Positions 713 to 24,566 of a stretch of 26,519 nucleotides of DNA are shown here, piece by piece (position 1 is the first letter of the stretch; every line of letters begins with the position of its first letter). The notes below the pieces were generated by a model. It had not been told where the DNA came from, ran no database searches, and saw only the letters and a list, made by a program, of their open reading frames with translations. Both the position numbers and the translations under genes were made by a program. This stretch comes from a virus. The DNA lies in the IMG/VR virus record IMGVR_UViG_3300010354_000530, positions 1 to 26,519 of that record; one strand, written 5' to 3'.

Positions 713-864
713 TAATCATCCCCTCGCTTCTGAACTAGCACTTCTTTTGAATTTGGATCAAAAATTTTCACGCTTGAGGAGAAATAAAATCCCCCAACCT
801 CATTGGGTTTGGTAGAAGAGGTCTGATCCTTTTTATCAGTATTATTCGACTTATTTTCGTTCAT
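712..864 (-). CDS. Small 50-aa protein, partial paralogue of the next protein's N-terminus
   Basis: This is a 50-codon frame between the giant gene and the 206-aa gene. Residues 1-22 are polar and low-complexity (Asn, Lys, Thr, Ser, Asp), probably disordered. Residues 24-50 (GGFYFSSSVKIFDPNSKEV, then LVQKRGDD) match residues 6-28 of the next protein: across the 15 aligned positions from VKIFDPN to VQK, nine are identical. An in-frame upstream ATG at 879-877, directly after the giant gene's stop, would add five residues (MINKE). I prefer 864 because the promoter motif at 870-877 overlaps the upstream ATG, but neither start has a strong Shine-Dalgarno. Its stop overlaps the next ATG by one base. 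Small proteins of this kind (polar head, then a GGF..SS..VKI-DP motif) are familiar to me from marine T4-like phages, without known function. It could be a partner or competitor of the 206-aa protein's N-terminal unit. Confidence 0.7.
   Translation of the reverse strand: MNENKSNNTDKKDQTSSTKPNEVGGFYFSSSVKIFDPNSKEVLVQKRGDD
720..725 (-). promoter_or_regulatory. Ribosome binding site of the 206-aa structural gene
   Basis: The minus strand reads GAGGGG, 7 nt before the ATG at 712-710. It lies inside the last codons of the upstream 50-codon gene, whose stop codon shares one base with this ATG. It is the strongest Shine-Dalgarno in the window and fixes the start of the 206-aa protein. Confidence 0.75.
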
Positions 865-869
865 TTCTT

Positions 870-877
870 TATTTATC
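870..877 (-). promoter_or_regulatory. T4-type late promoter motif GATAAATA
   Basis: The minus strand reads GATAAATA directly after the stop codon of the giant gene. With usual T4 late spacing, transcription would begin near 862-866, so this promoter would mainly serve the 206-aa gene and the genes beyond it. It would make the 50-codon gene nearly leaderless if translated from this transcript. It lies in one of the few non-coding stretches and matches the octamers at 84-91 and 24066-24073. Confidence 0.5.
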
Positions 878-879
878 AT

Positions 880-3800
880 TTAGGTTACATCCTGATATAA
901 GAATTCAGCAGGGGTTGTTGTACTAATCTGCAATGGATCTCCATCAACCGTGTTATATACATACGAGTTCCAAACCATATTATAATCTAGTTCTGCAAGC
1001 ATATTATTAGACAATCTGCTATAAACCTCTGAATAAATTGGAATGTATGGTTGAATTCCAGTAGCATTGAATCCACGCTGTAATCCTGACAGTCTGTTGT
1101 TCACTAAATCTACTGTTTCGAACTTAATTTGTTCTCCATTTATGTAGATTATTTTACCTTCCAATGTTGTAACAGTCAGTGAATCACCGGGCTGTATATA
1201 TGATCCGGCAGTAATTTTTACTAACGGAGACAATGCTTCTACAACAATTTCATATGCACTTGTTGGTATTAATCCTAATCTTGCAGGGTCGTTATTGTAT
1301 ATTGTAACGTTAGAAATTAGGTTCTTGTCTGCTGCCAAACCAATTGTGTAAATTCCATTTACTGCGGCCGGCGTAGTCACAGACTGAACGCTAACGTCTG
1401 TAAGTCTGGTTACGTCATCCACTTCAATGTACTCATCAAGTTCATATAATGGGGCAGTTAACCATGTTCTTGCTAAAGTATTGGCTCTATAAACTACCGG
1501 TTCATTTCTTTGATTTACTATTAACTGATATACTTCTTCATCTGGTGTTGAGTTTGGTACCATACTGGTAATAATAACTTCATCACCCGGTACAATAGTT
1601 GTCAATATACTCAAGTTATTGTAACTATTTAAATATAGTTTGCTTGACGGTACACGATATCCATTTACAGTTACCCACAAGCGATCTACGTTGTACTGCT
1701 CCCATTGAGATACGTTAACTGTATTTGCAGGAGTGTCATTAGTTAAAACAAACGTGTCACCACCTCTTGTTTCAGAAATTGTGAACAATGTTAGACCAAC
1801 TTTTTCTTTCACATAATATGTTCTTCCTGCAATAATGTTACCCATTATTGGATCATCTATATCTATTCCTGGAGAGGTAAAGATTACAGGAGTATCTACA
1901 ACTAATTCTGAATTAGATGCTACTGAAATTCTATTTGTAGTAGCAAAAGTTTCTGTCGCAGTTGTTGTAGTTATAATGAACAAACCATCTCTCCAAATGT
2001 ATCCACCACCCGTGTAAGTAGATACATCTGTTACTGGATAATTTGTAGCAGTTGGTCCAGGATTGTATGCTTGCAGATACAAATCAACTATCTGTGTCGT
2101 AACAATTTTAACGTAATATATATTATTGTTCAACTGTGTACTACCTTGAACACCGTCAATTCTAACCAATGTATTTTCTGTTAAATTGTGTGGTACTCCA
2201 GTTGTAACTCTTACTGCAGGAGTTCCACCAACTATACAAATTACATTTCCTGTATCGTTTGTTAATGTTACTACGTTTCCGTTTTCGTCTGCAATGACCA
2301 CTGATCCAGCACTAAAGTATTTTACGAAATATATTAAACCAGTCGTATTAAGTGTGCCAAATGCAGTGCCCTTAAACTGTATTGTTTGTCCTACAACAAA
2401 GTTTAGTGTAGAAGTTACTGTGATATCATAGTAATCCGCAGTACCCGTTCCAGTACCTGCACCTGTAGCAACAAACGTCTCACCTACAGTATTACTTGCG
2501 GCACCTATCAACGTGAAGTCAGTGGTTCCTATAGTTGCAATAACATAAGGTCTACCTATTACAAATGCTCCTGCACTTACAGTTGTGATATTTGTTGCAG
2601 TTGCATTAGTAGTTGCTAATGCCGGTGTAATACTATTGTTAATATTTGTAATATCTGCAACAGTCAATCCATTAACAGTAGCAATCATTGAACCTGTATC
2701 GTCTGTCAATGTTAATGCTGTTCCTGACAATTGATCACTTATAACAAACTGTGTACTATTCCATATCTCAGTGATAAAGTATGTTGTGCCTGCAACAATA
2801 CCATCTAGAGTTGGGGCTGTAAATACGATTGAATCACCTACATTTAACCCGGTCGTATCATATCCGGGTGCGCATGTTAACCAATTAAGTTCTTCATCAA
2901 ATGCAGTAGTATCATAACCTACGAAGGCAGTACCTGTACCGGTTCCTGCACCGGTTGCTATAAATGATAATCCTGGAGTATTACTTGCTGCACCGATAAG
3001 AGTAAAGTCTGTAGTACCTACGGTGTCAATTACATATTCGTATCCAATATCAAAATCACCTGCATTTATTACCGCATCAAACGGGAACTCACTGTGATTA
3101 GTACTTTCTACAACAATTTGTACGAACGCTGAACCAGGAGTTCCTGTAATACCATATTGTGAATTAAAGTATTGACGATCAGTTGAATTGTATGTGGTTA
3201 CCGCAACAGTGCTTCCATTTGGTGGAGGACTATCAAATAATATTGTATTAGTAACGCTACTAATTGTATACAATGCCTGTGTAATTCTTAATCCATTAAT
3301 TTCTACAATTGCATTATATGGATTATCTTCACCCACATAATTGTTTAGTGCAAATGAAGATGTAGAACCATCACCAGTAAACAACTGAACTTCAGGTATA
3401 GTGAATGCATATTGATCAGGTGTTGTTTCCCCAAACACACTGTATACTAGATAGTCTACAGAATTATCATATTGGGCCGCTAATACCATCTTAGCAGAAA
3501 CACCATTGGGTTGTATACCAAATGCAAAATCATTTGTTACAAATGATGCACCACCTGTTGCGTTTGTTAATGGAATAACTGAGCCGCCTGGTGTTGCAGA
3601 TACCGTAAATTCATTACTATCTATAATAGCACTAATATAATAAACTGTTTGCGGAATTAATACACCACCAAACATCGTGTTGCTAAACACTATAGGAGTA
3701 TTAACAATTAATCCGCCCGTTGAGTTTGTAGTTATAGCATTATTTGAAGATTTGGTTCTAGTTACTGCATTCGTTTTACCTAGTACTAATTTAGTACCAT

Positions 3801-6800
3801 TATGATAAACAGCAGGGTCGGTCCAAACACTACCTGTACCAGTTTGTATAATTGCAGTCATTGACCCGGTTGCAGTAGTCAATATTAATGTTGGTCCAGC
3901 CGTACCTGTTATTGCATTATAACTTGCAGAAACGGTGATACTACTTGTTACAGTACTGATTGACTTAACATAATATATGGTATCTTCTATAACATTACCA
4001 AACGTTACACCTTGGAAGTATATAGGAGAATTAACTGTGAACTGAGTTACATCGTCACAAACGATGGTATTATTAGTACCGTTTGTTGCAACTGCTGTCA
4101 CTTCAATTGAATGTGAACCCGGTCTTATTACACCGCTGCCTTGGAAATATAACTCTGAGTAATTACAGTTTAAATATATTTCGTCAAATCCAGTCACTGT
4201 GTTGTTTCTGATAGGATCAGTTTTTGTATTTGCCTTAACTAACTGGTCTCCGTTACCAACTTCGTACACATCTACTCTTAATCTATCTGTTGATGGACTC
4301 AAATAGTTCAAAGGAGTGTTTAATGTTAACGTTTCATTTATATAATCTACAGTGTAATCAAGTGTTTCATACAATGAAGTGCTTAAACCTGTTGCCCCGT
4401 CTATCACAAAGCATGCTATTTGAGCAGGACTTAACACGCTTCCTGTCCAATCATATACCGTTTGTGATGCTGACGTTGGAGTAAATTCATATGAGACTAC
4501 GTTATAACCACTATGTCCGTATGTAGTTATTGGCCAGTTTGTTCCAGGACGAGTAGTTACAGTCATTGTTAATTCATCCGTTACAACACCTGGTACTAAT
4601 TCTTCTGGACCGTAACCTGCTTGGAATGGGTCACCTACTACGTCATATACAGTGGGTGCTACTACAAACAATGAAGAACTTTCCCACGTTACTCCGTTGT
4701 CTATACTCTTTAGGATTGTGTTATTGTCACCGACCACAACCCAAGTATTTCCTGAAACATAGTTTAGACCATTCAAATTCTCAACTGTTCCTGAAGTTCT
4801 TTCAGTCCAAGTTACACCGTCTGGGCTAGTCGTGATTCTACCCAAATCGCCTACTGCCATAAATTGTGAGTTAGCCCAAAGAACATCACGTAATGTTTCT
4901 GTTCTTGGGTACTTGTACATAATTGTTTGTGCTGGTATAGAACCTGCACCTGACAAGTCGATTGGAGGATTACCAATTGCATCTGTAATTTGAATCTGTG
5001 TAGAAGATATTACAGTATGTACATAGTATGTTGTACCGCTACTCAAAACATCGAATGAATCTGTAAATCTAACAGCATCATTTACTGCTAGTCCGCTTAT
5101 TGAACTAATACCCAATACGTCAGTAGAACCATTGATACCTGTTACTTGTGTTTCAGTTACGCCAATCCAATCTGTTCCGTTTTGTGAATAGTAAATTATA
5201 CCATCTTCACCGACAATCAATGCAATAGAACTGTTAGAAGTAACTCCATACATTCCCTTCTTAGTTGCAGAAGGAAGTTGAGTCCATGCTATTCCATCAG
5301 TTGTTTGAACAATAATGTTAGTGTCAACTATCTGTGTCAATCCAGTTGAATAGTCATAACGCTGACCTTTACCTACAGCAATGAAACCATCAAATATAGT
5401 TACTGGACCTGATAACAATGTTATAGGTGCAACACCATATAATGTATTATTCAATACAGTATTAAAGTTGAAACTTTCTCTCCAAACGTAAGTATCATCA
5501 CTGCGTACAATACTATCACCTACTGCCATGTAATACCCGTTCTTGTATGCAACAGAATATAGTGACAATGCCGCTATATTAATTGAAGTCATATCATACG
5601 GTATATCATCATATGGAGTAGAACCATATGGAGTGAAGTACCCGTTAGTTGTCCAAGTAATTCCGTCATTACTTCTATAGATAGGTGTTGCACTATTTGT
5701 AGAAGTAATAATATAATATCCACCTGCATAAATGATATCGGTTGCGCCGATACCAACATTTGCTAATTTAGCAATTGCCCAACTATCGCCAGTTGCGCTT
5801 CCCAATACAGCCGAATATGTTGGTATGTTTGCTGCGGCTAAATAATGAGAGCCGTTCCACAATACTGATGTAATGTCAACTTCAGTAGGATAGAATTCTT
5901 GTCCTTGTAATACAGTGTCTAATGTGAACTGCTCTGCCGGAGCAAAAGGATTTCCTAAGTATGTTGAATTTGGATACGTGATACCAGTGTACAGTTGAGT
6001 TAAATCAACACCTGGCATATTATCAGTTGGCTGATAGTAACCAATTGTTCTATCTAATGCATTCAATCTACGATCAGAAGGATCTAATAATTCCCACTTA
6101 CCAAATATAAATTCATCATCATTATTACTGATCACACAGATATAAACTCTGTTATTAAATTTCACAATGCTTTGATTGAAATAGAATGGTTCAGGTAACA
6201 ATGCAAAACTGCCTGCCTTAGCCATCGTCATAGAACCACTTGCATTGCTTGCAAAATTAATTACGCTTCCACCTGGATTGGTTGTTAATCTTACAGTGGT
6301 TGATGTTGGTTTATCATAAATGTAATATGTTTGTCCTAAAGAAATTTCTGCTGAGAATATTGTTCCTGTAAAGACTACTGGATCATTGAGATTAAACTCT
6401 GCTGAACTTGTAACAGTAACTCTATCATTTGATGCTGTAACTGCTGTAGCAGTAGTTGTTGTAAACCCTACGAATGGGAAATCGATTCCACTTACAGGAA
6501 CTTGCATCAATGGATCAGAATAAACTTCAAATTGATTTGGTGTTATTACTTTCAAGTAATATCTTTCTTTTGCACCAGGAACCGTACCTGAGCAAATTAC
6601 ATCAGTAATTCTACCAGCAACGCCAGGTCCGCCGCTTGTATCAATCGTGTTAACTATCATAGTTAAATCATTGGCAGGACTTGTTCCACCTAATTGATCA
6701 CCTGTAATTACAAGTTGGTTATCTACTGCAAAACCATAGCCTCCGTTTGTTATTAATACTCTATATCCACCGAGTATGTAACTTACGTCAAATATTGGCA

Positions 6801-9800
6801 GTGTTGGTGATACTTCACTTGAACTTGGGAACTGTACTAAATTGAAGTCTGTATTAGTATAGCCCAATGTTGTGCCACTTAACTTGATATATGGATCTCC
6901 AGTACCGGTCATTAATCCATTAGATGTTGTTAATGTTTTAACTGGTCCACCGTCTGTTGCAGATATCTTAAATTTAGTACCACCAACACTTGGATGTAAT
7001 CCATAGGCTGTACCTGTACCGCTACCGACACCAGTTGCAGTAAATGTAGTACCAGGATTATTATCCGCTGCTCCAATAGCAACGAAATTAGTTGTACCCG
7101 GAACTTCAATAGTATATGATTTACCAACAACAAAACTGCCAGCATCTGTTACAAAATATCTTACATAATATTCATCGCTAATAACGATTCCACCTAATGA
7201 TTGACCAGTGAATATAATTGGCATTCCAACATATAGGTTGTCTGTAGAATCGCAATTTAAAATGTTATAAGAACCGTCAGTATTATAGACCTCTGTTTCT
7301 AATGCAGGGAAATATGTACCCGGATTCATTGGATCTTCTAATCCAGTATACTCTTCTATGTAATAAGTTACACCTGCTGTCAATAACGAGCCAGCTGGGG
7401 GTGTCTCTACTTGAATAGGCATATCGACATAAAAATTGTCAACGCCGCCTGTTGAAGTTTTGACTCCAATCTTATTGTTTTCTAAGGTCGCTGTTAATGT
7501 TCTTTCAATTAAATTAGTAATTTCACTACCTGGAACATCTATGTCTGCATATTGACCTGATGTTTCATAGAGTATAAATTGCTGACCATTAACTTGACCA
7601 GGACTTACTGGCAACGAAACGTTTACAGTCATTGAACCTGTAGCAGTAGTTAAAGGTAGTGTGTTAATTTGACTTGTTAATGTACATCCGGTATTACTTG
7701 CGGCAGATACAGTTGTTAGGCTAAATATTGTTCCGTTAATAGTAGCAGATACTTTAATTTGAGTAGCACTTACAATTTCTGCAACATAATATGTTGTACC
7801 TGATACTAGTCCACCAAATGATGTAACATCGGACCCTGCAATTTGCATTTGATTAAATATTACCGGTTCGTTAACGGTTAAGTTATCATTACTTTCAATT
7901 GTTATTACATCGGTACCTGTTGTAGTTGCTACAACACTTAGCATTAACGGATCGTTTGATTCAGACATAGTAAATGTCTGATTGTCAACAACTGTAGTCA
8001 CATAATAAACTTGATTTTGTGTAACACCACCGTATGTTGTTCCTGTAAAGAACAATGGCAGTCCAACGTAGAACCCGACAGTTCCTCCAGTACCTATATC
8101 ACTTAACGGTACTGTTACTCTATTAGTTGCTGCCTGTGTTGCAGTCGCAGTTAAGATACCTGGGTAGTTTACTGTCAATACCGCCGTATCAACAACTTGT
8201 CCAACATATGCGAAGGCTCCTGGAGCAGAAGGGATGACAACAGTGCTAAAGCCAGTTAATTGTGGTCCGTTTTCAGTAGCGGATACAGTAAAGTCTGTGA
8301 TATTAACTATACTATGAACATAGTAAGTTGTCCCTGTAACTAATGGGCTAGGAATTTGTCCACTAAATTTAATTGGCATTCCAACATAGAAGCCAATAGT
8401 TGAACCTGAACTATTTGGATCACCAGCGCCATCATCATAAGGCTTTAGTCTAATTAAACTTCCTGTACTAACTGTTCTATCCACAGTGCGTACAAAACTT
8501 GACCAAGTTAAATCTCTATCATTTACAACACTGATAATTTCAAACGCTACACCCTGTGCTGATGCAAGGATATCTTCAATCGGTGGTTGAGTTGAATATA
8601 ACTGTACCGCAGAACTAGAAACTTTCTCGCTATTAGAATAACTTCCTGCAAAGAAAGCACCATAATACTGACCTGCTTCCCAATCTTGAACTTGTGAGGT
8701 GTACGTTGTTCTATCAAAACGTAGTTTGATATTGTTTTCACGCACAGGACTTGCAGAACTGATAGCACTAGCCTTAGCACCTAAATTCAATGTGTGGTCA
8801 TTACCACTACCGTCATTGTAAATTTGAATCCTATCTCTATCGTTTAATGCATCCCCGTAACTTGAATATAATCCAATTACTGATGTTGGATCACTTTCTA
8901 ATAAGTTTACATAGTACCATTGTCTGTCTACTAGACCACCAATAGCACTACCTATTTCACCTTTTCTATACTGTATCAAGTCTCCGGTACGTAAGTTAGG
9001 AGCATATAGTCTAATAGTATTGGTTAATGAGTTTACGTCTGCACTTGTAAAGATAATTTGTATTGCCGGGTCGATTCTGATTTCAGGTAATACTGGATAT
9101 CCTTGACCTGGATCAATTACATTAATTTGTAATACAGAATCCAATGTCATAACTGCTTCTAGTACGGCTGCTCTTAATGGGGCGCCGTACACGGCTTCAT
9201 CAACATATGCTATAACTCTAGGAGGGTCAATGTATCCTCTACCACCATTCAGTATAATTACAGGAGGTAAATCAATTAATATTTTTTCACCCGGTATATG
9301 ATCAGATATAGGGGTATTGTTGTATCCTCTTATGATACCACTTAGTGCGTTAGTTGCTCTATCTACATATGAGTAACTAATTAATTCTTCTCCAATTCTT
9401 ATAACACCATTGATTGGGAAACCCTGTGCGTTATCAACAAGTACAACTCTTGTACCCAATGTCAGGTAAGAAGTCAATATAGTGATTTCAAATTCTGTTT
9501 GACCACCTATACTTACGCCTCTATTTTGGAACCATTGATTATATGGTTGAGTTTGCCATATTGGACTAGTTGGTAGATATTGACTATCTAATGATACGTT
9601 ACTCTGTACCAATTCAGGAGTAATATATTGTTGCAATGATGCATTATATGTTGCAGGAAGATCAAAGTCAGTGATGTTACCTTCAAATACTTCTTCTCCT
9701 GTGTACTTGAATACAAATTCTTTAACCACAACGTGATATGGTTTTACCTCATTGATATAACCTGCCAAGAAATCTTGATTATCGCTTTGGAATACTTCAA

Positions 9801-12800: not shown

Positions 12801-15800
12801 CATATGGCGCGCCAATTACGACTGTATCACCATTGTAATCCGTTGATATTGAATGACCGAAATTATCTCCGCTAGACAAACCTAGAACAGAACCATCAAT
12901 AATATTGACTAATTCATAATTTACTTGTCTTGCTCTACCTGTTTCTCCAACTGTTCCGGTGCCTGAAGCGATGAACACTTCGCCTATTTGATTATAGGTT
13001 GTAGTTGGTGTGGTGCTTATTGTTGCAAAATCCGTATCACCTACATTAGTAATTGCGTAAGTTTTACCTACAGTTAAGTAACCAGCATCAACTTCAAAAC
13101 TTTGGCGTCTGTAAACATAAACCTGATTGTTATCAACATCTGAAACGTATAGCCAATTACCATCGCTTGATGCTGATATCGAACTGCCCCAATTAGTTAC
13201 ACCACCTGGTGCACTGATTGCAGTTTGATAAGTTATAATGTCATCTGATAATATACTATCGTTAACATAATAAATGTAAACTTTAGGAGTACCGCTAGTT
13301 GGTTCAGAAACAAATATTGTGTTATTGACAATTAATACTTGTGAGCCAAAACTTGTACCTTGAGTTAATGTTTGAATATTGTCATATTCATTGGTCAATC
13401 CATTCAATACATAGCGATATACTTTTCCTAACCCCGCATCTGCGAATAGATAACCTATTCTAGGAGTATATGCTACTGCACTACCAAAAGTACTAGAAGA
13501 AGCCTTAGTAACTTCTCTATCATATTGGTAGTTAATTCCCTTACGATATACAGCCCAGTTACCGTCACTGTTTTCATCTACCCATACAGTATTCTTAATA
13601 AATTCACTGTCTAACAATGGTAAATTGTTTATGTCTGATGGAGTCGCAACACGCTGAGATTGGAATCGTACTACAATACCTTCCCCATTGATTAGACCGT
13701 CATTAGTTAAGAATGTAAGATTAACTAAAATTTCAAATAAATTAACTACCTCAACAACAAAATAATATCCATCAACGTTAGAGTTGAAGTTTATTATAGC
13801 GATCGGATCTAATTTTGTTAGATTATGCGGCTCAGCAAAAGTTACTGTTGAAGTACCATTTGGATTACTTCTTACACTTACTACTCTTCCGTTCTGTACT
13901 GGAGTAAGTACTTGCCATCTTCCTAAATAGTCTGCTAACCAAACATAATTTCTAACATAGAAATCTTGTATAGGGACAATTTGTCCGTTTTTATTAACTG
14001 CATTTGGTAAACCTGAGTAGAAATATGAACTCATCTTTACGTCATTAAAGTTCACGTAGCCTGCGTCAGGATATAATTTAGCAGGTGCATCTTTAGGAAT
14101 AGTTGCTAATATATTTGGATTCTGTACAGGCACACTATAATTAAAGAGATTGTATACTGGAATCTCCTGTTGCACTTCTGCTACTGAAGGACCATTTATT
14201 AAACTTACTAACGATGGGTTAGCAGTCATGTACTCTTGGTTAACTTTAAATTCGATAAAGTTATTATTTGTAATACTACCAAACTGTCCTGACTTGATTG
14301 CCCAATTTTCGTATACTTCGTAGTCAATACCACCTTGTGGTAAATTAGCGCCACGGAACGCTTCTACAGCATTTCGTGTGCCTTTGTTCTTAATTAAATT
14401 TTTATAAACATTAATTTGCGTAATGTCTGTGAGGTCTGCCAATGCTAGATAATCACGTGGGCGATATCCAATCAAACTGAAACTTAGTAAGTCTGCGTCT
14501 TGCTCAAGGTTAGCCCTATTTATATCATAGTACAACGTACTTTCATAACTACGTGTGCTTGAATTTGGTAACAACCCTTTTTGAATTTCGTTATACTCTG
14601 TTTCTTTCCACTCAGTTTCATTAAATGTGTTTGAAGGTTGAACTATCTTAAGCGCAGTCCAATATTTGTTCTTGTATAATACTATAGAACCTTTAGTATA
14701 TTTGATTTCTCTTGACCATTCTTTTACGTTATCTTGGTTGAGAATAAAGCCTGAAGCCGTTACTGTGCCATTCCATTCTGCTGTTTTTGTTCCGCGAACA
14801 GTAATACGTGTTTGACGTAAGCCAGTAATTAAGTTATAGATAACATCATTAAACAATGTTACGTTATCAAAAACAATACCATGTTCAAAGTTGCTCATGT
14901 TGAATTGACCGTACGCAATGGTATCACCTTGACTTAATGCCTTAACACTAAACATATTACCATCACGGAATACAGCCATATCAACTGCTTGTATTGGATA
15001 TAAGTTTTGATTTAATACAAAGTTAGTTTGTTGAACTGTTAATGGTTGAACTATACTATTTGGTTGGTCAATCTTTAGTAAGTTAGCGCCTGGGTTCAAT
15101 GTTAATACACTGCCTTCACCCCAACCGGTTTGTGCCCAGTATAAGAATTCAGCAATCATTTGACCCCAGTTAATTTCTAAACCATATTCTACTTGGTCAA
15201 AGATAAAGCCTTTACTATTCAACCATGCTCCATAACTTGCCAAAAACACTGACAGGTCTTGAACATTATAGAACATAGTACCATATGGTACTAATATTTC
15301 ATCACTACTATAATCTCTTGTAATTTTTACACTTGAGTCATCAACCTTAATGTTATCATAGTTACCATTGTTTAATGGAGTCAGTGTCCTAAAATAAGCC
15401 ATTGACTGTGAGTTACCATATACTGTAAACCCCAGACCGTCTATTTGAATAATTATAGAACTATAAACATTTTTATCGAATGGTTGGTTGTCGTATAATA
15501 ATACTTGATAACTTTCGTCAGGGATTAACAATGATGAATTTCTACTATTAGGTGTTCCCTTTTCAACATAGAACTTGAGTAATGTCTTATCGCTAAATCC
15601 GGCTAGTCTATAAACTAATCTTACGTCAACGTTAGACAATAGTTCTTTAATATTTTGTGTAGCAGTTATGCCCAACTGTTTTTCATAATCAACAATCCAG
15701 TTGATATAAGAAGTTTTAGGTGTTCCTGTACCATATATTTCAATGTTATTAATAACCAAATGGCTTCTATCATTAACAAGATATTGGTTAAACTCTGAAC

Positions 15801-18800
15801 TATACTTATAATTGTCTATATCTACACCTAAGTTAAAGAACTTAGCGGGTTTAGTCAATGCTAGTATTCGCATTAAGTCAAATGGCCATGTACTGCTTCT
15901 ACGATAACTAAATTCTACCGGTGCATCGTCGCCTATGTCCCATTCATTTTGGAAAGTTTGTGCATTATAGTTTCCTACAATTGCATCTAATGGCGATAAC
16001 AAGTTACCATTACTATCTACTGGTAATACTTTTAATAAGTTTGGTCTTACTTCAGCAGGGATAACATAAGGATCACCGTTATTCCAATTGATACCTTGTT
16101 CTAAATCTCCCCACAATATTAAGTTGTCACTTGTGTACGGAGCAGGACCATATCTATCTGTCCACCAAGTTGGTTGATTTACAAAACCCAACAACTCCCA
16201 CGGTGTTTGATTAGGAGTGCTTGTACCAAAATAGTATTCGTAGATACCTCTCCAATATCCTTGTTCTATAGGCTCTCTGTTAAGTTTATTGCCTGAATTT
16301 CTATAATTGAATGTAAATGGATTATTCTTATCGTAGAATTGTCTCTTGTAATTCAATCTGTTTTGACCAATCCAATTTAAGAAATTCTTTTGATAAATTT
16401 CTAAGTACTCTTCATATGTATAATCGCTGTCTCTAAAGAAACCCGGAGTAATTTCATATGCTTGAATAGGTATAGGATTACTTATCTTAAGGTTATTATA
16501 AATTCTTGTTTCAAACTCTAATAGAGCCTGATCTCTATAATCAATTAATATACCTAAAGTAGGGTCATAATCACCATAGAGTTTAGTATATGACCCGTCG
16601 TGTCCTTTAATAAAATATGTAGGTTGTGTGTAATCACTGTCTAGTACTACACCTGGGATATATGCTGGATACAATCCTAATTTAGTAGGTGTATTTGGAA
16701 TATATGAACCGTATGTCTGATTATATTCTTTTACGGTAATCTGATCCGCAGGTTGTAATGGAATAATAACAGTTAATGATTTGCTATCTGTGCTAACTGT
16801 ATATTCTTCACCTATAATCAATTGTCTTTCAACAACAGTACCTTCAATAACTCTTGACAAATAAACCAATAGTCCATAATAGTTAGCAGTTGAGAAATCA
16901 TAAATTTTGCTTAATGGATAAACGCTAGTGTCTAGGTCATTATTGAAAGTATAGGTATTAGTTATGTATGGCGCTTTACTTGGCAACATGTCAGACCAAA
17001 AGAAGGCTTGACTTTCGCTCTTAGCCGCAGATAACTGATCCAATGCATCATCTAATATGTATGACGGTGTAAATCGTTGTGGATAATCAGTGCTATTAAC
17101 AGTATCTACTAATAACGTCTTGAACTTAATGTATTCTCTGCTATTGAATAATAGCGCATCAAATAAATTATGATTTTGTTTGCGCAAGAATGCACTAGGC
17201 AATACTAAGGCAGCACTGTTCTGAATTATCTTTGTACCGTATGGTACAAGATTTCCTAAATCTCTATAGTTGTTAGAACCAAACATTGGTCCTTGGAAGT
17301 TAGGATTATTTGCGTATATAGTTTGATAGTGTGCGCGGATATCTCCAATATTTGCCGTAGTCAAATCTTGGTTCAATGGATTGTTATTTAAATTAATTGG
17401 TATAGTATAGTAAGATTTTAGACTTACTTGATCACTCAACAATAATATTTGAATTACAGTATCTTCATTGATAATATTATTCAATGTTACAGTAGTGCTG
17501 TCAGGACCAACTGATACCGTATATGAATCTGATGTTTGTAAAACATTATTAATATAAACTTGTATTGTTGGCCACTCACTTTGAGTAGCATCTAGTTTTG
17601 CAACATCACAAATATAATTTGCAGGAGGATTAGATACAAAATAATCAAAACTAAAGACTTGATATTGTACGCTAGGACCAACAGCAGTTTGCCATCCCAA
17701 TTCACGTTGATATTCATCACGTGTTCCGTAGTTCAATACATAACCTGTATTAACTTTTTCTGTTATTGGATCGGTACCGCTAACATAATCAAATGTGTCT
17801 GTGTTCAATGACACATCAAATGATATGTCACCCACGTTGTCGATTGAACTATAGCGAACTGGGAAACCTAATATAGTATCATCTAGTCCGGCCCCTATGC
17901 CATAAGCAAATAATTTTGAACCAATAAATGTGGTTCCTCTATAAACTTCAGTATCGCCAAAACTTATATTATTACTATCTACAACGTCAAACAACGGTGG
18001 TTGATTTACGTCAGTTTTCTGTTGTCCTCTTAACCAATTGATTCCGTCATAGTAATATGTGTCACCTTGATAGGTGAATCCTCTTAATATTACTGTTTGA
18101 TCTTTAGGTAACACTTCTCCGTCCGGTGCCTCAGTCAATGTAATAACTGGTAACAAACTTGAAGTTACTGTTGAGAAATTAACAATATAAATTTTATTCT
18201 TTACGTTGATGTTAGTATCTGCGGCAAACACAATTCGTGCCCCATCAAATACTTTATAGTTGTCATTTTGTTGATCATCTGCAACAAACTGTACATTGTT
18301 TATTGTTGCGAATGTAATATTATCAATCCAACTAATTGTCAATGTTGTAATACCGCTTGATTCAGTGATATCTGTAATTTGCGCATCAGATGGTAACACG
18401 CTTGGATAAGTTGTTGTTGAGGTACTAAAACGTAGGTCAGTTATATACTGTCCTATTTGGAAAGTTCCAATGATATCACTTGTTGCTATTGTTGCAGTAG
18501 TAGACGTACCACTAACAACTCCTGTCAGCGTTGCTGTATAATCTGTATATGTCTCTACATCAGGATAAAAACCAGTTTGTCCTGCTACCTGAGAAAGAGC
18601 ATCAGTTGATTTGAAATCGATAAAGTCTATTGCACTTTTACCTACTGTTCCTGCATCAAACAACTTTAAGTTAGGATAAAACTCAATAATAGGACGTTTT
18701 GCTTTAGCATCAGCGGTTGCATAAACGTTTACTATTTCTGGGTTGTTATTATATTCTGCGGTAGAATTGATAACATCAATATGGAACCAACGATTACTAC

Positions 18801-20670
18801 GTGACCAAGCATTTTTATTAATAGCATTTCTAGCAATAGTAATGTAATCCGGTAATACTGGTACAAACAGATTACTGTCGTAGTTACCAATATCATATGG
18901 TGCAGTATCATATGGTATGTAGTCACCTTCAGTAAAATCTTCAGGACATACTAAAGAAGTAACCGGTATTAATTCAATACCTGTCCCAACTCCTTCTACA
19001 TAATATTGTCCTTGTAGATAACTAGACGGAATAACGTCTCCATCAAATTCAACTTTCAATCCATTTGTAAATGTTATACCATTTGTAGATGTGAAATTCT
19101 TTTTTCCTAAAATATCAGTTTCTACATTCAATGTATTTGTGATATTGCTTTCAATGATTTTAATAATACCAACTTTAGATGGACTAGTTCCATCTTGGTA
19201 ATATAGAGTATCTAATGGTGCAGTAATTGCAGGTATCAGAGCAATTGTTCCTGCGGTGTTTCTATAGAAACCTCTATTGATCCATGCTGATCCATAAACT
19301 GGAGTAATTCTCTGCTCGGTAGGAATTACTGCTACTGGCGTAAGTCTTAGTACTGGATCACTAGGATCACCTATGTAACTTATTTGATAGAAGTTTTGAC
19401 TTACTAATGAAGTATAACCTTCTTCTAACAAACCTTGATTAATGTTACCTGTCATTGTGCCAAATGCAGTTGACAATGTTACTGGCTGTGGATCAGGACT
19501 TCCTGCTTGATATGATGTAACTGTAAACTGTGTTGAACTCAATATGCTATCTACATAATAAATTGTGCCAGATACAGCATAAGAGTCTAGTCCACCAAAT
19601 GGGGTTCCGTCAAATGTTATTGTTTGTCCTACCACTAAGTTTGCAGTAGAACTGCATGTAATTGCACCTGATACATCGGTAGCAGAAATAGTAATTGTTA
19701 ACGGTGCTACTAAATCAATATTTGTATCGTACTCACCTTCACCAAAGTATTGTGAGGTATATCCAGTTTCATTAGGTACACCAGTGTCATAGAACATAAC
19801 GGTTAGCCCGTTAAGTGACGTTACTCCATCAATACTACCTACAGCAGACAATAATTGACCATTGATTTGTGAGAATGGTACTGTACTTACAACATCTACT
19901 AAATTGTTGCCAGGATAATTATATTGGTCTTGTGCGTCTTTTGCGGGTACGGTGAATGTTACAATACCTTGTTCGGCTCCGTTATTAGATACACCAAACA
20001 CATCTCTAGTATAAACATTAGGTTGTGTTGGATTGTATCCACTAGTGCCGGGTGACGTTTGAATCCAAAACTGTGAACTTTGATTTACATAGAAATTATA
20101 TGTACCACCACGCAATAGTATTAATGTAGGGTTAATTGATCCTGCACCAGTTCCCAATGTTCTAATATTATATCCGCTTGCTAAATCTGTAACGATATAA
20201 TCGTTTGTTGCAAATACGGTTGCAGCCGCAACTTGAACAGCGGGAGGACCATCTGGTAACCAATAGTATTGGTTAAAGTTAATAATCTTATCTAAGTTAG
20301 TAAATGAATCCCATGCATAGAATTGACTTTCAAACATGCGGTCATTGTTATTAGTTACGCCGCCTTCTAATTTTAAAGAATCGATGATACCCGGATACGT
20401 GATAAAATCTTGTGCTACACTTTCATTCTTTTTAGTGAATACAACACCTGGATCTAACTGATAATCCGTTCTTACCTTAGTAGGTTCTGTAACGTAATAA
20501 TCTTTAGCGTTGACTCCGTAACCTAACTTACTACCAATGTATCCTTCAATTCTTTTTGTCAATGGAGGATTTACAAGTTGGTCTAATGTTGCTCCTAAAA
20601 ACTGACTGTTAGTTGGAGTTTGAAATATTTCTGGTAAGAAATTTAGTGTTCTTATTCTTGTTGTAGCCAT
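880..20670 (-). CDS. Giant modular baseplate/tail structural protein (6596 aa), in the gp7 position
   Basis: One uninterrupted reading frame of 6596 codons starts 6 nt after gp6 and so is almost certainly co-transcribed with it; the upstream Shine-Dalgarno is weak (AAGA). No signal peptide, membrane segment or enzyme active site was recognised. Order of parts by residue: 1-140, a conserved start (FLPEIFQTPTNSQFLGATLD, then YYWLPDGPP); 323-409, a first GTTYYV-type module; about 607-2140, non-repetitive core with Trp-rich blocks (NAWSRSNRWFH, YWRGIYEYYFG, EFLYWAQTGWGEG, GYRPRDYLALADL); 2390-3070, seven FG-GAP-like repeats; 3140-3673, second core (RPRQSFFFDRFEALKNYL); 3750-3817, LSGIIRGYNNT and GGRGYIDPPRV motifs; 4063-4818, module array; 4930-5337, seven Asp-box repeats; 5520-6319, second module array; 6503-6533, second LSGLQRG motif; end. 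T4 gp7 is about 1030 residues, so a gp7 role rests on gene order only. A structural adhesin or baseplate decoration role is inferred. Confidence 0.93.
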   Translation of the reverse strand: MATTRIRTLNFLPEIFQTPTNSQFLGATLDQLVNPPLTKRIEGYIGSKLGYGVNAKDYYVTEPTKVRTDYQLDPGVVFTKKNESVAQDFITYPGIIDSLKLEGGVTNNNDRMFESQFYAWDSFTNLDKIINFNQYYWLPDGPPAVQVAAATVFATNDYIVTDLASGYNIRTLGTGAGSINPTLILLRGGTYNFYVNQSSQFWIQTSPGTSGYNPTQPNVYTRDVFGVSNNGAEQGIVTFTVPAKDAQDQYNYPGNNLVDVVSTVPFSQINGQLLSAVGSIDGVTSLNGLTVMFYDTGVPNETGYTSQYFGEGEYDTNIDLVAPLTITISATDVSGAITCSSTANLVVGQTITFDGTPFGGLDSYAVSGTIYYVDSILSSTQFTVTSYQAGSPDPQPVTLSTAFGTMTGNINQGLLEEGYTSLVSQNFYQISYIGDPSDPVLRLTPVAVIPTEQRITPVYGSAWINRGFYRNTAGTIALIPAITAPLDTLYYQDGTSPSKVGIIKIIESNITNTLNVETDILGKKNFTSTNGITFTNGLKVEFDGDVIPSSYLQGQYYVEGVGTGIELIPVTSLVCPEDFTEGDYIPYDTAPYDIGNYDSNLFVPVLPDYITIARNAINKNAWSRSNRWFHIDVINSTAEYNNNPEIVNVYATADAKAKRPIIEFYPNLKLFDAGTVGKSAIDFIDFKSTDALSQVAGQTGFYPDVETYTDYTATLTGVVSGTSTTATIATSDIIGTFQIGQYITDLRFSTSTTTYPSVLPSDAQITDITESSGITTLTISWIDNITFATINNVQFVADDQQNDNYKVFDGARIVFAADTNINVKNKIYIVNFSTVTSSLLPVITLTEAPDGEVLPKDQTVILRGFTYQGDTYYYDGINWLRGQQKTDVNQPPLFDVVDSNNISFGDTEVYRGTTFIGSKLFAYGIGAGLDDTILGFPVRYSSIDNVGDISFDVSLNTDTFDYVSGTDPITEKVNTGYVLNYGTRDEYQRELGWQTAVGPSVQYQVFSFDYFVSNPPANYICDVAKLDATQSEWPTIQVYINNVLQTSDSYTVSVGPDSTTVTLNNIINEDTVIQILLLSDQVSLKSYYTIPINLNNNPLNQDLTTANIGDIRAHYQTIYANNPNFQGPMFGSNNYRDLGNLVPYGTKIIQNSAALVLPSAFLRKQNHNLFDALLFNSREYIKFKTLLVDTVNSTDYPQRFTPSYILDDALDQLSAAKSESQAFFWSDMLPSKAPYITNTYTFNNDLDTSVYPLSKIYDFSTANYYGLLVYLSRVIEGTVVERQLIIGEEYTVSTDSKSLTVIIPLQPADQITVKEYNQTYGSYIPNTPTKLGLYPAYIPGVVLDSDYTQPTYFIKGHDGSYTKLYGDYDPTLGILIDYRDQALLEFETRIYNNLKISNPIPIQAYEITPGFFRDSDYTYEEYLEIYQKNFLNWIGQNRLNYKRQFYDKNNPFTFNYRNSGNKLNREPIEQGYWRGIYEYYFGTSTPNQTPWELLGFVNQPTWWTDRYGPAPYTSDNLILWGDLEQGINWNNGDPYVIPAEVRPNLLKVLPVDSNGNLLSPLDAIVGNYNAQTFQNEWDIGDDAPVEFSYRRSSTWPFDLMRILALTKPAKFFNLGVDIDNYKYSSEFNQYLVNDRSHLVINNIEIYGTGTPKTSYINWIVDYEKQLGITATQNIKELLSNVDVRLVYRLAGFSDKTLLKFYVEKGTPNSRNSSLLIPDESYQVLLYDNQPFDKNVYSSIIIQIDGLGFTVYGNSQSMAYFRTLTPLNNGNYDNIKVDDSSVKITRDYSSDEILVPYGTMFYNVQDLSVFLASYGAWLNSKGFIFDQVEYGLEINWGQMIAEFLYWAQTGWGEGSVLTLNPGANLLKIDQPNSIVQPLTVQQTNFVLNQNLYPIQAVDMAVFRDGNMFSVKALSQGDTIAYGQFNMSNFEHGIVFDNVTLFNDVIYNLITGLRQTRITVRGTKTAEWNGTVTASGFILNQDNVKEWSREIKYTKGSIVLYKNKYWTALKIVQPSNTFNETEWKETEYNEIQKGLLPNSSTRSYESTLYYDINRANLEQDADLLSFSLIGYRPRDYLALADLTDITQINVYKNLIKNKGTRNAVEAFRGANLPQGGIDYEVYENWAIKSGQFGSITNNNFIEFKVNQEYMTANPSLVSLINGPSVAEVQQEIPVYNLFNYSVPVQNPNILATIPKDAPAKLYPDAGYVNFNDVKMSSYFYSGLPNAVNKNGQIVPIQDFYVRNYVWLADYLGRWQVLTPVQNGRVVSVRSNPNGTSTVTFAEPHNLTKLDPIAIINFNSNVDGYYFVVEVVNLFEILVNLTFLTNDGLINGEGIVVRFQSQRVATPSDINNLPLLDSEFIKNTVWVDENSDGNWAVYRKGINYQYDREVTKASSSTFGSAVAYTPRIGYLFADAGLGKVYRYVLNGLTNEYDNIQTLTQGTSFGSQVLIVNNTIFVSEPTSGTPKVYIYYVNDSILSDDIITYQTAISAPGGVTNWGSSISASSDGNWLYVSDVDNNQVYVYRRQSFEVDAGYLTVGKTYAITNVGDTDFATISTTPTTTYNQIGEVFIASGTGTVGETGRARQVNYELVNIIDGSVLGLSSGDNFGHSISTDYNGDTVVIGAPYVDYSGSILNWGKAYAYSRSIQTFEAQLNTSGLQTFNLAWTGTTLNSATTQVYASNQIGVNVDFTGYENYPIVFSGSNFGSTGLQANKVYYINTVVSSTRITVKESRSSSTSVTLAPEAGLTINGYLQLEPLYVTVNGTLIADNNYSVIGSSFYYTAPLMAGDIINISGDKFTLIQSFTTGNDPRVGVQYGYSVAVNNAGTDLLIGAPFDLSDENEEGGVYRYTNGGSKYGVVIGTNEVNVTTNRTILINGYSVTIPPGNATVAANAIIQEKITNITAGATDDNKLIIQVINTDLAQPNEKLLLSALNSNTLSELGINVYTQTQVIRSPHAVGPTQFGYNIKFNELNSVVISAPVGIRFAGTRFDFSDDETLENDTIFDNNATQSVDTSPNCGAVYMFDYLANYNESLNDPGQYVYAQSVNNLNLEYGFNPLYGQALSFSNNRVLIGSPNFLPEVYDGQVVIYINPTGESDWSVYRESSPIVDINKIKNIQLFSAETNNTLVNLDYIDPLQGKILGACRENIDVVSNNDPARYNSTDADQPGMTWGSKQVGQLWFNTTNVRFVNYHQNNDANYNAKYWGTVFPGSDVAVYSWVSSNVPPSEYTGPGTPFDITLFSTQNILSASDVVTPLYFFWVRNSNLIFRKEGKTLSDSIIETYITNPKNSGIGFFAPLLQNVYAIYNCDQYYNANDSVLHIGYSNGRGDDTGHNEYTLIRANYADDFLPGLPNELLTHGFDANIHGNTPTGNNRPESLYDRMLDSLSGVDETGEVVPNPWLPKAVQSGVLARPRQSFFFDRFEALKNYLTYANEVLAQFPISETRRNASFLFAEGEFFNTTDYWEYVNWWATGYDNNTKSVLQVQIYADLATLTVPVNTIVTVNTNGDGKFEVYRYDGDGVWSRIGLQQGTIQFKLYLWDYAAGKTGFGDNFFDTSAYDEFPSEETRYIIRALNEQIYTDELLIFRNKSLVLLFEYIQSETDESQNYLPWLNKTSLVDVSHKIRELRPIEVFQSDNQDFLAGYINEVKPYHVVVKEFVFKYTGEEVFEGNITDFDLPATYNASLQQYITPELVQSNVSLDSQYLPTSPIWQTQPYNQWFQNRGVSIGGQTEFEITILTSYLTLGTRVVLVDNAQGFPINGVIRIGEELISYSYVDRATNALSGIIRGYNNTPISDHIPGEKILIDLPPVIILNGGRGYIDPPRVIAYVDEAVYGAPLRAAVLEAVMTLDSVLQINVIDPGQGYPVLPEIRIDPAIQIIFTSADVNSLTNTIRLYAPNLRTGDLIQYRKGEIGSAIGGLVDRQWYYVNLLESDPTSVIGLYSSYGDALNDRDRIQIYNDGSGNDHTLNLGAKASAISSASPVRENNIKLRFDRTTYTSQVQDWEAGQYYGAFFAGSYSNSEKVSSSAVQLYSTQPPIEDILASAQGVAFEIISVVNDRDLTWSSFVRTVDRTVSTGSLIRLKPYDDGAGDPNSSGSTIGFYVGMPIKFSGQIPSPLVTGTTYYVHSIVNITDFTVSATENGPQLTGFSTVVIPSAPGAFAYVGQVVDTAVLTVNYPGILTATATQAATNRVTVPLSDIGTGGTVGFYVGLPLFFTGTTYGGVTQNQVYYVTTVVDNQTFTMSESNDPLMLSVVATTTGTDVITIESNDNLTVNEPVIFNQMQIAGSDVTSFGGLVSGTTYYVAEIVSATQIKVSATINGTIFSLTTVSAASNTGCTLTSQINTLPLTTATGSMTVNVSLPVSPGQVNGQQFILYETSGQYADIDVPGSEITNLIERTLTATLENNKIGVKTSTGGVDNFYVDMPIQVETPPAGSLLTAGVTYYIEEYTGLEDPMNPGTYFPALETEVYNTDGSYNILNCDSTDNLYVGMPIIFTGQSLGGIVISDEYYVRYFVTDAGSFVVGKSYTIEVPGTTNFVAIGAADNNPGTTFTATGVGSGTGTAYGLHPSVGGTKFKISATDGGPVKTLTTSNGLMTGTGDPYIKLSGTTLGYTNTDFNLVQFPSSSEVSPTLPIFDVSYILGGYRVLITNGGYGFAVDNQLVITGDQLGGTSPANDLTMIVNTIDTSGGPGVAGRITDVICSGTVPGAKERYYLKVITPNQFEVYSDPLMQVPVSGIDFPFVGFTTTTATAVTASNDRVTVTSSAEFNLNDPVVFTGTIFSAEISLGQTYYIYDKPTSTTVRLTTNPGGSVINFASNASGSMTMAKAGSFALLPEPFYFNQSIVKFNNRVYICVISNNDDEFIFGKWELLDPSDRRLNALDRTIGYYQPTDNMPGVDLTQLYTGITYPNSTYLGNPFAPAEQFTLDTVLQGQEFYPTEVDITSVLWNGSHYLAAANIPTYSAVLGSATGDSWAIAKLANVGIGATDIIYAGGYYIITSTNSATPIYRSNDGITWTTNGYFTPYGSTPYDDIPYDMTSINIAALSLYSVAYKNGYYMAVGDSIVRSDDTYVWRESFNFNTVLNNTLYGVAPITLLSGPVTIFDGFIAVGKGQRYDYSTGLTQIVDTNIIVQTTDGIAWTQLPSATKKGMYGVTSNSSIALIVGEDGIIYYSQNGTDWIGVTETQVTGINGSTDVLGISSISGLAVNDAVRFTDSFDVLSSGTTYYVHTVISSTQIQITDAIGNPPIDLSGAGSIPAQTIMYKYPRTETLRDVLWANSQFMAVGDLGRITTSPDGVTWTERTSGTVENLNGLNYVSGNTWVVVGDNNTILKSIDNGVTWESSSLFVVAPTVYDVVGDPFQAGYGPEELVPGVVTDELTMTVTTRPGTNWPITTYGHSGYNVVSYEFTPTSASQTVYDWTGSVLSPAQIACFVIDGATGLSTSLYETLDYTVDYINETLTLNTPLNYLSPSTDRLRVDVYEVGNGDQLVKANTKTDPIRNNTVTGFDEIYLNCNYSELYFQGSGVIRPGSHSIEVTAVATNGTNNTIVCDDVTQFTVNSPIYFQGVTFGNVIEDTIYYVKSISTVTSSITVSASYNAITGTAGPTLILTTATGSMTAIIQTGTGSVWTDPAVYHNGTKLVLGKTNAVTRTKSSNNAITTNSTGGLIVNTPIVFSNTMFGGVLIPQTVYYISAIIDSNEFTVSATPGGSVIPLTNATGGASFVTNDFAFGIQPNGVSAKMVLAAQYDNSVDYLVYSVFGETTPDQYAFTIPEVQLFTGDGSTSSFALNNYVGEDNPYNAIVEINGLRITQALYTISSVTNTILFDSPPPNGSTVAVTTYNSTDRQYFNSQYGITGTPGSAFVQIVVESTNHSEFPFDAVINAGDFDIGYEYVIDTVGTTDFTLIGAASNTPGLSFIATGAGTGTGTAFVGYDTTAFDEELNWLTCAPGYDTTGLNVGDSIVFTAPTLDGIVAGTTYFITEIWNSTQFVISDQLSGTALTLTDDTGSMIATVNGLTVADITNINNSITPALATTNATATNITTVSAGAFVIGRPYVIATIGTTDFTLIGAASNTVGETFVATGAGTGTGTADYYDITVTSTLNFVVGQTIQFKGTAFGTLNTTGLIYFVKYFSAGSVVIADENGNVVTLTNDTGNVICIVGGTPAVRVTTGVPHNLTENTLVRIDGVQGSTQLNNNIYYVKIVTTQIVDLYLQAYNPGPTATNYPVTDVSTYTGGGYIWRDGLFIITTTTATETFATTNRISVASNSELVVDTPVIFTSPGIDIDDPIMGNIIAGRTYYVKEKVGLTLFTISETRGGDTFVLTNDTPANTVNVSQWEQYNVDRLWVTVNGYRVPSSKLYLNSYNNLSILTTIVPGDEVIITSMVPNSTPDEEVYQLIVNQRNEPVVYRANTLARTWLTAPLYELDEYIEVDDVTRLTDVSVQSVTTPAAVNGIYTIGLAADKNLISNVTIYNNDPARLGLIPTSAYEIVVEALSPLVKITAGSYIQPGDSLTVTTLEGKIIYINGEQIKFETVDLVNNRLSGLQRGFNATGIQPYIPIYSEVYSRLSNNMLAELDYNMVWNSYVYNTVDGDPLQISTTTPAEFLYQDVT
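2432..2574 (-). repeat. GTTDFT-type module, copy 4
   Basis: Residues about 6033-6080 read FVIGRPYVIATIGTTDFTLI, then GAASNTVGETFVATGAGTGT and GTA. It directly precedes the GTTYYV-type unit at 2230-2440, the same order as copy 3 and the unit at 2670-2890, so the two modules may have been duplicated as a pair. Confidence 0.75.
2920..3057 (-). repeat. GTTDFT-type module, copy 3
   Basis: Residues about 5872-5917 read FDIGYEYVIDTVGTTDFTLI, then GAASNTPGLSFIATGAGTGT and GTA. It is nearly the same protein as copy 4 (GTTDFTLIGAASNT shared exactly) but differs at many codon positions, so it is not a recent DNA duplication. Confidence 0.75.
4660..5880 (-). repeat. Giant protein: seven Asp-box-like repeats, putative second beta-propeller
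   Basis: Units follow V-G-x-x-x-x-I-x-x-S-x-D-G-x-x-W. Their ends read ATGDSW (about 5780), SNDGITW (5660), SDDTYVW (5490), TTDGIAW (5295), SQNGTDW (5170), SPDGVTW (4815) and SIDNGVTW (4690); the last is a textbook Asp-box. Such repeats form BNR/sialidase-type and related propellers. No sialidase Arg triad or FRIP motif was seen, so binding or structure is more likely than catalysis. A GTTYYV-type module (about 4940-5150) separates units 5 and 6, and a segment EELVPGVVTDELTMTVTTRP (about 4540-4605) follows the last unit. Confidence 0.6.
6080..6172 (-). other. Giant protein: short aromatic module resembling a carbohydrate-binding module (copy 2)
   Basis: Residues about 4833-4863 read SIVKFNNRVYICVISNNDDE, then FIFGKWELLD. 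It shares with the segment at 14605-14702 the order beta strand, F/Y-x-N-x-Y/V-x, a polar loop and a closing W-E/K. It sits between the first module array and the Asp-box propeller. A carbohydrate-binding role is a guess from the aromatic pattern. Confidence 0.33.
6215..8480 (-). repeat. Giant protein: first array of GTTYYV-type modules (residues about 4063-4818)
   Basis: Six related units of roughly 65-85 residues occur at about 8240-8480, 7920-8150, 7680-7920, 7330-7500, 6900-7270 and 6210-6460. The shared pattern is a Thr/Ser-rich strand, a V-x-x-P-I/V-x-F-x-G segment, G-T-T-Y-Y-V, a strand ending in F-T-V-S, then an L-T-x-x-T-G-S-M-like close. The unit at 6900-7270 is split by an inserted GTTDFT-type module at 7003-7134. 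DNA identity between units is low by eye, so these are old protein-level repeats. Similar beta modules occur in structural proteins of marine phages; their function is unknown. Confidence 0.72.
7003..7134 (-). repeat. GTTDFT-type module, copy 2
   Basis: Residues about 4513-4556 read FVVGKSYTIEVPGTTNFVAI, then GAADNNPGTTFTATGVGSGT and GTA. It sits inside a GTTYYV-type unit, separating that unit's EYYVRYF strand from its KFKISATDGGPVKTLTTSNG end. This class of module is widespread in marine phage structural proteins to my knowledge. Confidence 0.68.
9650..11250 (-). other. Giant protein: non-repetitive core 2 (residues about 3140-3673)
   Basis: After the FG-GAP region the sequence returns to non-repetitive, aromatic-rich protein. 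Landmarks are MTWGSKQVGQLWFNTTNVRF, NRPESLYDRMLDSLSG, RPRQSFFFDRFEALKNYLTY, YWEYVNWWATGY and GYINEVKPYHVVVKEFVFKY. Its style matches core 1, which suggests that the FG-GAP propeller and flanking modules were inserted between two parts of an ancestral scaffold. That history is inferred. Confidence 0.5.
11460..13500 (-). repeat. Giant protein: seven FG-GAP-like repeats, putative interrupted beta-propeller
   Basis: Seven units carry the FG-GAP pattern (FG or YG, small residues, hydrophobic strand, then GAP/GSP-type turn): STFGSAVAY (near 13480), TSFGSQVLIV (13350), TNWGSSISASSDGNWLYVSD (13165), DNFGHSISTDYNGDTVVIGA (12845), VQYGYSVAVNNAGTDLLIGA (12215), TQFGYNIKFNELNSVVISAP (11775) and PLYGQALSFSNNRVLIGSP (11490). 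Integrin alpha subunits fold seven such repeats into one propeller. A GTTDFT-type module (12933-13077) lies between units 3 and 4 and a GTTYYV-type module (about 12445-12660) between units 4 and 5. Calcium-loop acidic residues are not uniformly present. Confidence 0.6.
12933..13077 (-). repeat. GTTDFT-type module, copy 1 (divergent)
   Basis: Residues about 2532-2580 read LTVGKTYAITNVGDTDFATI, then a longer loop and GEVFIASGTGTVGETG. It is the most divergent of four copies and lies between the third and fourth FG-GAP-like units. The conserved parts are V-G-K-x-Y-x-I, G-D/T-T-D-F, and F-x-A-S/T-G-x-G-T. Confidence 0.62.
14517..14524 (-). promoter_or_regulatory. Internal TATAAATA inside the giant gene, possible late promoter
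   Basis: The minus strand carries a perfect T4 late promoter octamer within codons for the core-1 region. It is intragenic and could be chance in AT-rich DNA. If active it would yield a transcript entering about 13.6 kb upstream of the end of the giant gene. Confidence 0.2.
14605..14702 (-). other. Giant protein: short aromatic module resembling a carbohydrate-binding module (copy 1)
   Basis: Residues about 1990-2022 read YTKGSIVLYKNKYWTALKIV, then QPSNTFNETEWKE. The pattern Y-x-x-G-x-x-V-x-Y-x-x-x-Y-x-A ... W is that of small CBM5/12-like or fibre-associated modules that stack aromatic residues on sugars. A similar pattern recurs at 6080-6172. Sugar binding is inferred from pattern only. 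Confidence 0.4.
19442..19704 (-). repeat. Isolated GTTYYV-type module near the N-terminus
   Basis: Residues about 323-409 read ITCSSTANLVVGQTITFDGT, PFGGL, then GTIYYVDSILSSTQFTVTSY and a closing TLSTAFGTMTG. It is the only copy before core 1 and lies some 11 kb upstream of the first array, which shows that the module inserts at scattered sites as well as in tandem. Confidence 0.65.
20250..20670 (-). other. Giant protein: conserved N-terminal domain (residues 1-140)
   Basis: This segment reads NFLPEIFQTPTNSQFLGATL, then DQLV..PLTKRIEGYIGSKLG, DYYVTEPTKVRTDYQLDPG and finally FYAWDSFTNLDKIINFNQYY-W-PDGPP. I recognise this style from the start of large structural proteins of marine T4-like phages. 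It is the most likely docking part to the rest of the baseplate, since it is non-repetitive and precedes all added modules. The docking role is inference. Confidence 0.6.
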
Positions 20671-24558: not shown

Positions 24559-24566
24559 TATTTATG
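24559..24566 (-). promoter_or_regulatory. CATAAATA at the gp25 junction, weak late promoter candidate
   Basis: The octamer overlaps the stop codon of the Ala-rich gene and ends 5 nt before the gp25 ATG. Transcription from it would start at or just inside the gp25 start codon, giving a leaderless message at best, so it is doubtful as the gp25 promoter. Confidence 0.25.

Follow-up and report, generated by a model that had tools for sequence, protein, structure and literature searches.

The window, by which we mean the complete 26,519-nt stretch analysed (positions 1 to 26,519 of IMG/VR virus record IMGVR_UViG_3300010354_000530), carries one real, uninterrupted phage gene for a giant protein of 6,596 amino acids. 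The gene occupies positions 880–20670 of the minus strand, starts with ATG, and contains no internal stop codon. An earlier sequence-only reading had described a single frame of 6596 codons here without stating the strand, and the frame was confirmed. The product has a computed mass of ~722 kDa and a pI of 4.3. In our assessment, it is probably a structural component of the virion of a jumbo myovirus, sitting as one chain on the baseplate wedge, in the gp7 slot, and perhaps contacting the host through arms of beta modules.

The genomic surroundings are those of a baseplate locus. The giant gene starts 6 nt past the stop codon of a gene for a gp6-like baseplate wedge subunit (20677–24048, minus strand, 1,123 aa; PHROG 10646, E = 1e-257; PHROG 219, E = 7e-19), which is preceded by the gene for a gp25-like wedge subunit (24095–24553, minus strand, 152 aa; Pfam GPW_gp25 above the cut-off; PHROG 43). 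In T4, gene 6 is followed by gene 7, and the giant holds the same position immediately downstream of gp6. Both the 6-nt spacing and the T4-like order had been read from the sequence, and both were borne out. A 55-aa ORF (712–879, minus strand), which is conserved in relatives and whose stop overlaps the next start, separates the giant from a 206-aa gene (92–712, minus strand; PHROG 11259). Clade members show the same order gp25, gp6, giant, 206-aa gene, and cultured jumbo phages a modified version of it.

The smaller genes showed features of their own. The 206-aa protein is 86–99% identical across the clade and far more conserved than the giant; in RaK2 and XaC1, its homologue is encoded on the other strand, at a distance of some kb. 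The 55-aa ORF contains the motif FYFSSSVKIFDPNSKEVLVQKRGDD, conserved in relatives, and its sequence is similar to the N-terminal part of the 206-aa protein (VEGFLKIYDPNNGEVFVDKHNAI); small annotated counterparts are PA5oct gp356 and Atu_ph07 gp179. At the other end of the window, an open-ended protein of 651 aa (24562–26517, minus strand) is Ala/Ser/Gly-rich, repetitive and fast-evolving between relatives, and gave no match in the family search. In this region, the GC content climbs to 47% (25001–26000).

Profile searches place the giant in PHROG 10938 ("virion structural protein", model length 3,324), a known family with members among cultured jumbo phages. The match extends over the first 4,000 residues, with E-values of 2e-67, 7e-133, 7e-19 and 4e-53 for the four successive 1,000-aa pieces, and the last 2,600 residues fall outside the family profile. 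A profile match to baseplate families had been anticipated; matches were indeed obtained, to this jumbo-phage virion family and not to gp7-position proteins of marine myoviruses. The PHROG category of the family is "head and packaging" and not tail, which counts against the baseplate reading. Directly downstream of gp6 stand the homologues of RaK2 (ORF070, 3,326 aa), 121Q (gp582, 3,323 aa), XaC1 (3,332 aa), CBB (CBB_236, 3,340 aa), Vibrio phage 2.275.O (3,771 aa), PA5oct (gp355, 3,857 aa), Atu_ph07 (gp180, 4,449 aa) and Phosso (4,555 aa); the SCTP-2 homologue has 3,807 aa. Alignment with PA5oct, Atu_ph07 and RaK2 revealed blocks at residues 1–147, ~507–697, 799–2305 and ~3052–3680, with 22–37% identity. 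The cultured members share the four homologous blocks and the slot after gp6 with the giant, which is 1.4 to 2 times longer. CBB_236 was found in CBB virions by mass spectrometry with 21 unique peptides and 7.72% coverage (PMC5259590), and the record of PA5oct gp355 bears an "ESI-MS/MS" note; both are homologues without the long extension described below. Our literature searches found no description of the long form.

Although the giant occupies the slot of T4 gp7 (1,032 aa, the baseplate wedge initiator), it is six times larger and has no detectable sequence or profile similarity to it. When gp7 was compared with the cores of the family, profile against profile, the probability stayed below 1%, that is, noise only. 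We also built a profile of the gp7 signature (R..DFYSTKG...SYKFLFK.LYNE) with the help of T4 and S-SSM7, with S-MbCM6 serving as an independent control. This profile recognised T4 gp7 (1.6e-34), the 3,007-aa protein of S-SSM7 (1.4e-28) and the 7,022-aa protein of S-MbCM6 (3e-12), whereas the signature was found neither in the giant nor anywhere in the PHROG 10938 family. Ten related genomes, namely RaK2, 121Q, PA5oct, Atu_ph07, Phosso, SCTP-2, XaC1 and three large relatives, yielded no gp7 either. One gp7-like stretch in 121Q turned out to be noise on inspection. As the slot is the same and the signature is missing, "gp7" is right as a position and unproven as homology. The earlier proposal of a phage structural protein of the baseplate therefore stands with respect to the gp25–gp6 context, the virion structural family and the size of ~722 kDa, and falls short where it implied homology to gp7.

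The cyanophage proteins also put the size of the giant into perspective. S-MbCM6_080 (YP_007001806.1), with 7,022 aa, occupies the same gp25–gp6–giant slot and belongs to the same size class, but it has the gp7 signature and lacks the cores of the family studied here; the two proteins have one ~130-residue module in common (E = 1e-5). In the S-MbCM6 giant (L201:6780–27848), the signature lies near residue 700, and the protein is annotated merely as a virion structural protein. Likewise, S-SSM7 gp7 (SSSM7_101, 3,007 aa) is very large and directly follows gp25–gp6, yet it carries the gp7 signature and has no detected homology to the family cores. The model of PHROG 701 (virion structural) spans 6,136 positions, and close relatives of the giant reach 6,718 aa. 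The view that the giant is exceptional in size was therefore not upheld: neither its size nor its slot is unprecedented, and its size alone is no record. Judged from sequence comparison, the slot after gp6 was inflated in at least two lineages, with proteins that are not detectably homologous outside one module.

In these jumbo phages, gp7 has either diverged beyond recognition or been replaced. Since nearly all of them have it after gp6, the giant is the obvious candidate for the gp7 role. We tentatively suggest, as a possible though somewhat unlikely course of events, that in this lineage an unrelated wedge protein took the place of gp7 and was inflated to 6–7 kilo-residues by module gain, separately from cyanophage gp7. 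That the giant is instead a true T4 gp7 orthologue, so extremely diverged that insertions erased the similarity, seems unlikely to us. It would account for the slot directly after gp6 and for the failure to detect another gp7 in the related genomes, and S-SSM7 and S-MbCM6 show that gp7 can inflate while keeping just the ~30-residue signature. Precisely this signature, however, is absent from the giant, its family, and the seven cultured jumbo phages and three large relatives, and the profile–profile result points in the same direction.

The architecture of the giant, encoded throughout on the minus strand, combines family-wide cores with variable modules. Alignment and conservation delimit core block I (residues 1–300, 19771–20670), of which residues 1–147 are common to cultured jumbo phages, and a further block at residues 500–700 (18571–19173). 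Core blocks II (residues 800–2310, 13741–18273) and III (residues 3050–3700, 9571–11523) are conserved family-wide. Within block II, residues ~1982–2029 (14584–14727) form a putative mini-domain resembling CBM5/12 (chitin-binding type 3). The CBM_5_12 score of 17.0 bits lies below the curated Pfam cut-off of 26.2, and the T4 gp34 profile matches the same segment. Foldseek gave a probability of 1.0 at ~2 Å over 41–50 residues, with matches that include baseplate proteins of phage Milano and of the Anabaena contractile system; the similarity of the modelled fold supports the CBM5/12 identity. The variable insert between blocks II and III (residues 2310–3050) contains an FG-GAP_2 repeat detected by Pfam (12754–12876), likely a beta-propeller. 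A module at residues ~3757–3888 (9007–9402) recurs, with a length of ~75–130 residues, in virion proteins of cyanophages whose annotations read baseplate, neck and tail fibre. The C-terminal region (residues 6380–6596, 883–1533) is conserved across the long clade.

Structure-based searches added little to this layout. AlphaFold models of residues 1300–2310 and 3050–4240 were of low confidence (mean pLDDT 51.5 and 55.3) and had no PDB match with E ≤ 0.001; gp7 was absent among the PDB matches listed for them. Sequence-profile searches of the PDB with the three cores returned nothing significant. Beyond the CBM5/12-like mini-domain, we detected no sequence or fold link between the giant and T4 gp7 or a solved baseplate protein. 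A BFVD search yielded many matches to very large phage virion proteins, including those of Atu_ph07 and a "baseplate wedge initiator" of Synechococcus phage Bellamy; with TM-scores near 0.1, we read them as indicating no more than comparable chains of beta domains.

The abundance of beta-rich modules raises the question of whether the giant could be a tail fibre, whisker or adhesin-like protein located elsewhere, on the tail surface, neck or head, and merely co-transcribed with the baseplate genes. Its repetitive beta-rich modules, FG-GAP and propeller-like repeats and CBM5/12-like domain would suit such a protein, some of its modules are common to tail fibre and neck proteins, and relatives such as CBB bear tail whiskers on their virions (PMC5259590). 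Nevertheless, it is the core and not the tips alone that is conserved in the giant, and domains for fibre trimerisation or chaperone function were not detected in it. Moreover, the compact gp25–gp6–giant arrangement persists over large distances, while fibre genes usually move and diverge faster. Hence, we regard a fibre or adhesin at another site as improbable, and retain the baseplate wedge as the probable location.

What sets the giant apart from its cultured relatives is a clade-specific C-terminal extension, which, as judged from profile and conservation analysis, accounts for the extra length and is built around an ~80-residue beta-rich module termed R1. BLAST self-comparison of the giant revealed no repeats; profile iteration uncovered 15 R1 copies. 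Thirteen of the 15 form an array in the extension (residues 4040–6380, 1531–8553), which also contains propeller-like repeats matching designed beta-propellers (residues 4811–5170, 5161–6240). One copy is inserted in the N-terminal core (residues 324–408, 19447–19701), and an R1-like copy was found by profile in the propeller region (residues 2666–2746, 12433–12675). Several modules, including the one at residues 324–408, are lacking in some clade members. The PDB sequence-profile search found no solved relative of R1, and in Pfam, E1_FCCH and the endosialidase beta barrel matched it only below the cut-off. Another short repeat (DFTLIGAASNTPG..F.ATGAGTGTGTA) is present in three copies in the giant, at residues ~4528, 5888 and 6051, and in 0–3 copies in relatives, sometimes adjoining R1 modules.

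The distribution of R1 follows relatedness. While conservation across the family is confined to the cores, residues 3700–6500 are conserved within the clade only, and the cultured members examined have neither this extension nor the R1 copy in the N-terminal core. The iterated profile counted 8–15 copies in the clade, with 9–15 in the long relatives, three in one relative (L055) and none in eight cultured relatives and four other contigs; tblastn with two R1 modules likewise found none in cultured phages. Across 34 proteins, the R1 count correlated with protein length (r = 0.96, not corrected for shared ancestry). We scored R1 in 83 further loci, in each case in the visible part of the sequence. 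Loci with at least 60% core identity and long enough sequence had about 7–12 R1 modules in that part, loci with 41–55% identity mostly 0–5 (one had 8), and those near 30% none. Frame lengths were 5.9–6.5 kaa at 60% core identity or above, and at successively lower identity ~4.2–5.4 kaa (one 6.1) and 3.8–4.1 kaa. Within the lineage, the protein lengthened, nearly twofold in the giant, through the gain of R1 and other beta-rich modules.

The integrity of the long frame was supported by several lines of evidence. A stop-free run of 6,596 codons has a chance probability of ~10^-220 at the local base composition, and the other five frames of 880–20670 contain roughly 8–50 stops per 300 codons. GC3 is low (0.17–0.29) along the entire gene, as expected for continuous coding, and no in-frame internal Shine-Dalgarno/ATG combination was seen. 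Relatives of the core are encoded on at least 598 IMG/VR contigs. The last 306 residues matched 35 of 39 IMG/VR records tested, nearly all with stop-free frames of 5,845–6,726 aa. The complete gene could be rebuilt from overlapping stretches in 21 IMG/VR records (5,842–6,718 aa), with both flanking neighbours unchanged, and 13 further records with a core identity of at least 60% had frames of 5,889–6,542 aa, and one more had a frame of 5,101 aa. In one relative (L060/G034), the gene is split in the record into 3,596 and 2,110 aa by a small deletion or frameshift near residue 3508–3568; this split, near locus position 17824, is the one clear exception among the relatives. Compared with the three nearest relatives (~90% identity), dN/dS was 0.03–0.10 in every region, the extension included, and all regions are under purifying selection. 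A mis-join or collapsed stop codons, named beforehand as what would undo the reading, can be dismissed because more than 30 other, independent IMG/VR contigs carry the same single stop-free frame of ~5,840–6,720 aa. Despite the very long frame on a metagenomic contig and the split gene of L060/G034, these contigs already refute the idea that the assembly produced an artefact, whether as a chimera or by fusing several genes via missing stops, and the low dN/dS and the lack of internal starts also speak against it. A search of genome contigs found distant relatives only, in metagenome-assembled genomes of mixed taxa, so that no host can be named.

Taken as a wedge protein, the giant would be made as a single chain and attached beside gp6 and gp25, where T4 has gp7. 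Assembly and anchorage at the wedge periphery would fall to the family-wide core (residues 1–300, 500–700, 800–2310 and 3050–3700). A string of small beta-rich modules, R1 and propeller-like repeats among them, would make up the inserts and the last 2,900 residues, joined by the CBM5/12-like mini-domain from inside the core. These modules would project from the baseplate rim and widen it, as arms or a skirt, and the arms would probably touch cell-surface glycans during adsorption. Against this reading count the poor structural models, the lack of a sequence or fold link to gp7 or, outside the mini-domain, to solved baseplate proteins, and the finding that, FG-GAP aside, the giant had no known receptor-binding or enzymatic domain above a curated cut-off. 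The data demonstrate the single gene, its synteny and family membership, homologues in virions, growth by modules and purifying selection; the location on the baseplate, the division into anchor and arms and the contact with the host surface are inferred from them.

If gp7 was replaced and the giant inflated separately, the position downstream of gp6 would be one where phages repeatedly build very large host-contact arms onto the baseplate. The jumbo phages considered here constitute a group that has gp6 and gp25 but lacks a recognisable gp7, and one may ask what initiates the wedge of their baseplate. The giant shares its core with cultured jumbo phages, and length steps up with relatedness from about 3,300 to 6,700 aa. 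As these steps proceed via one repeated beta module, the family offers a concrete example, open to testing, of how very large tail structures arise in phages.
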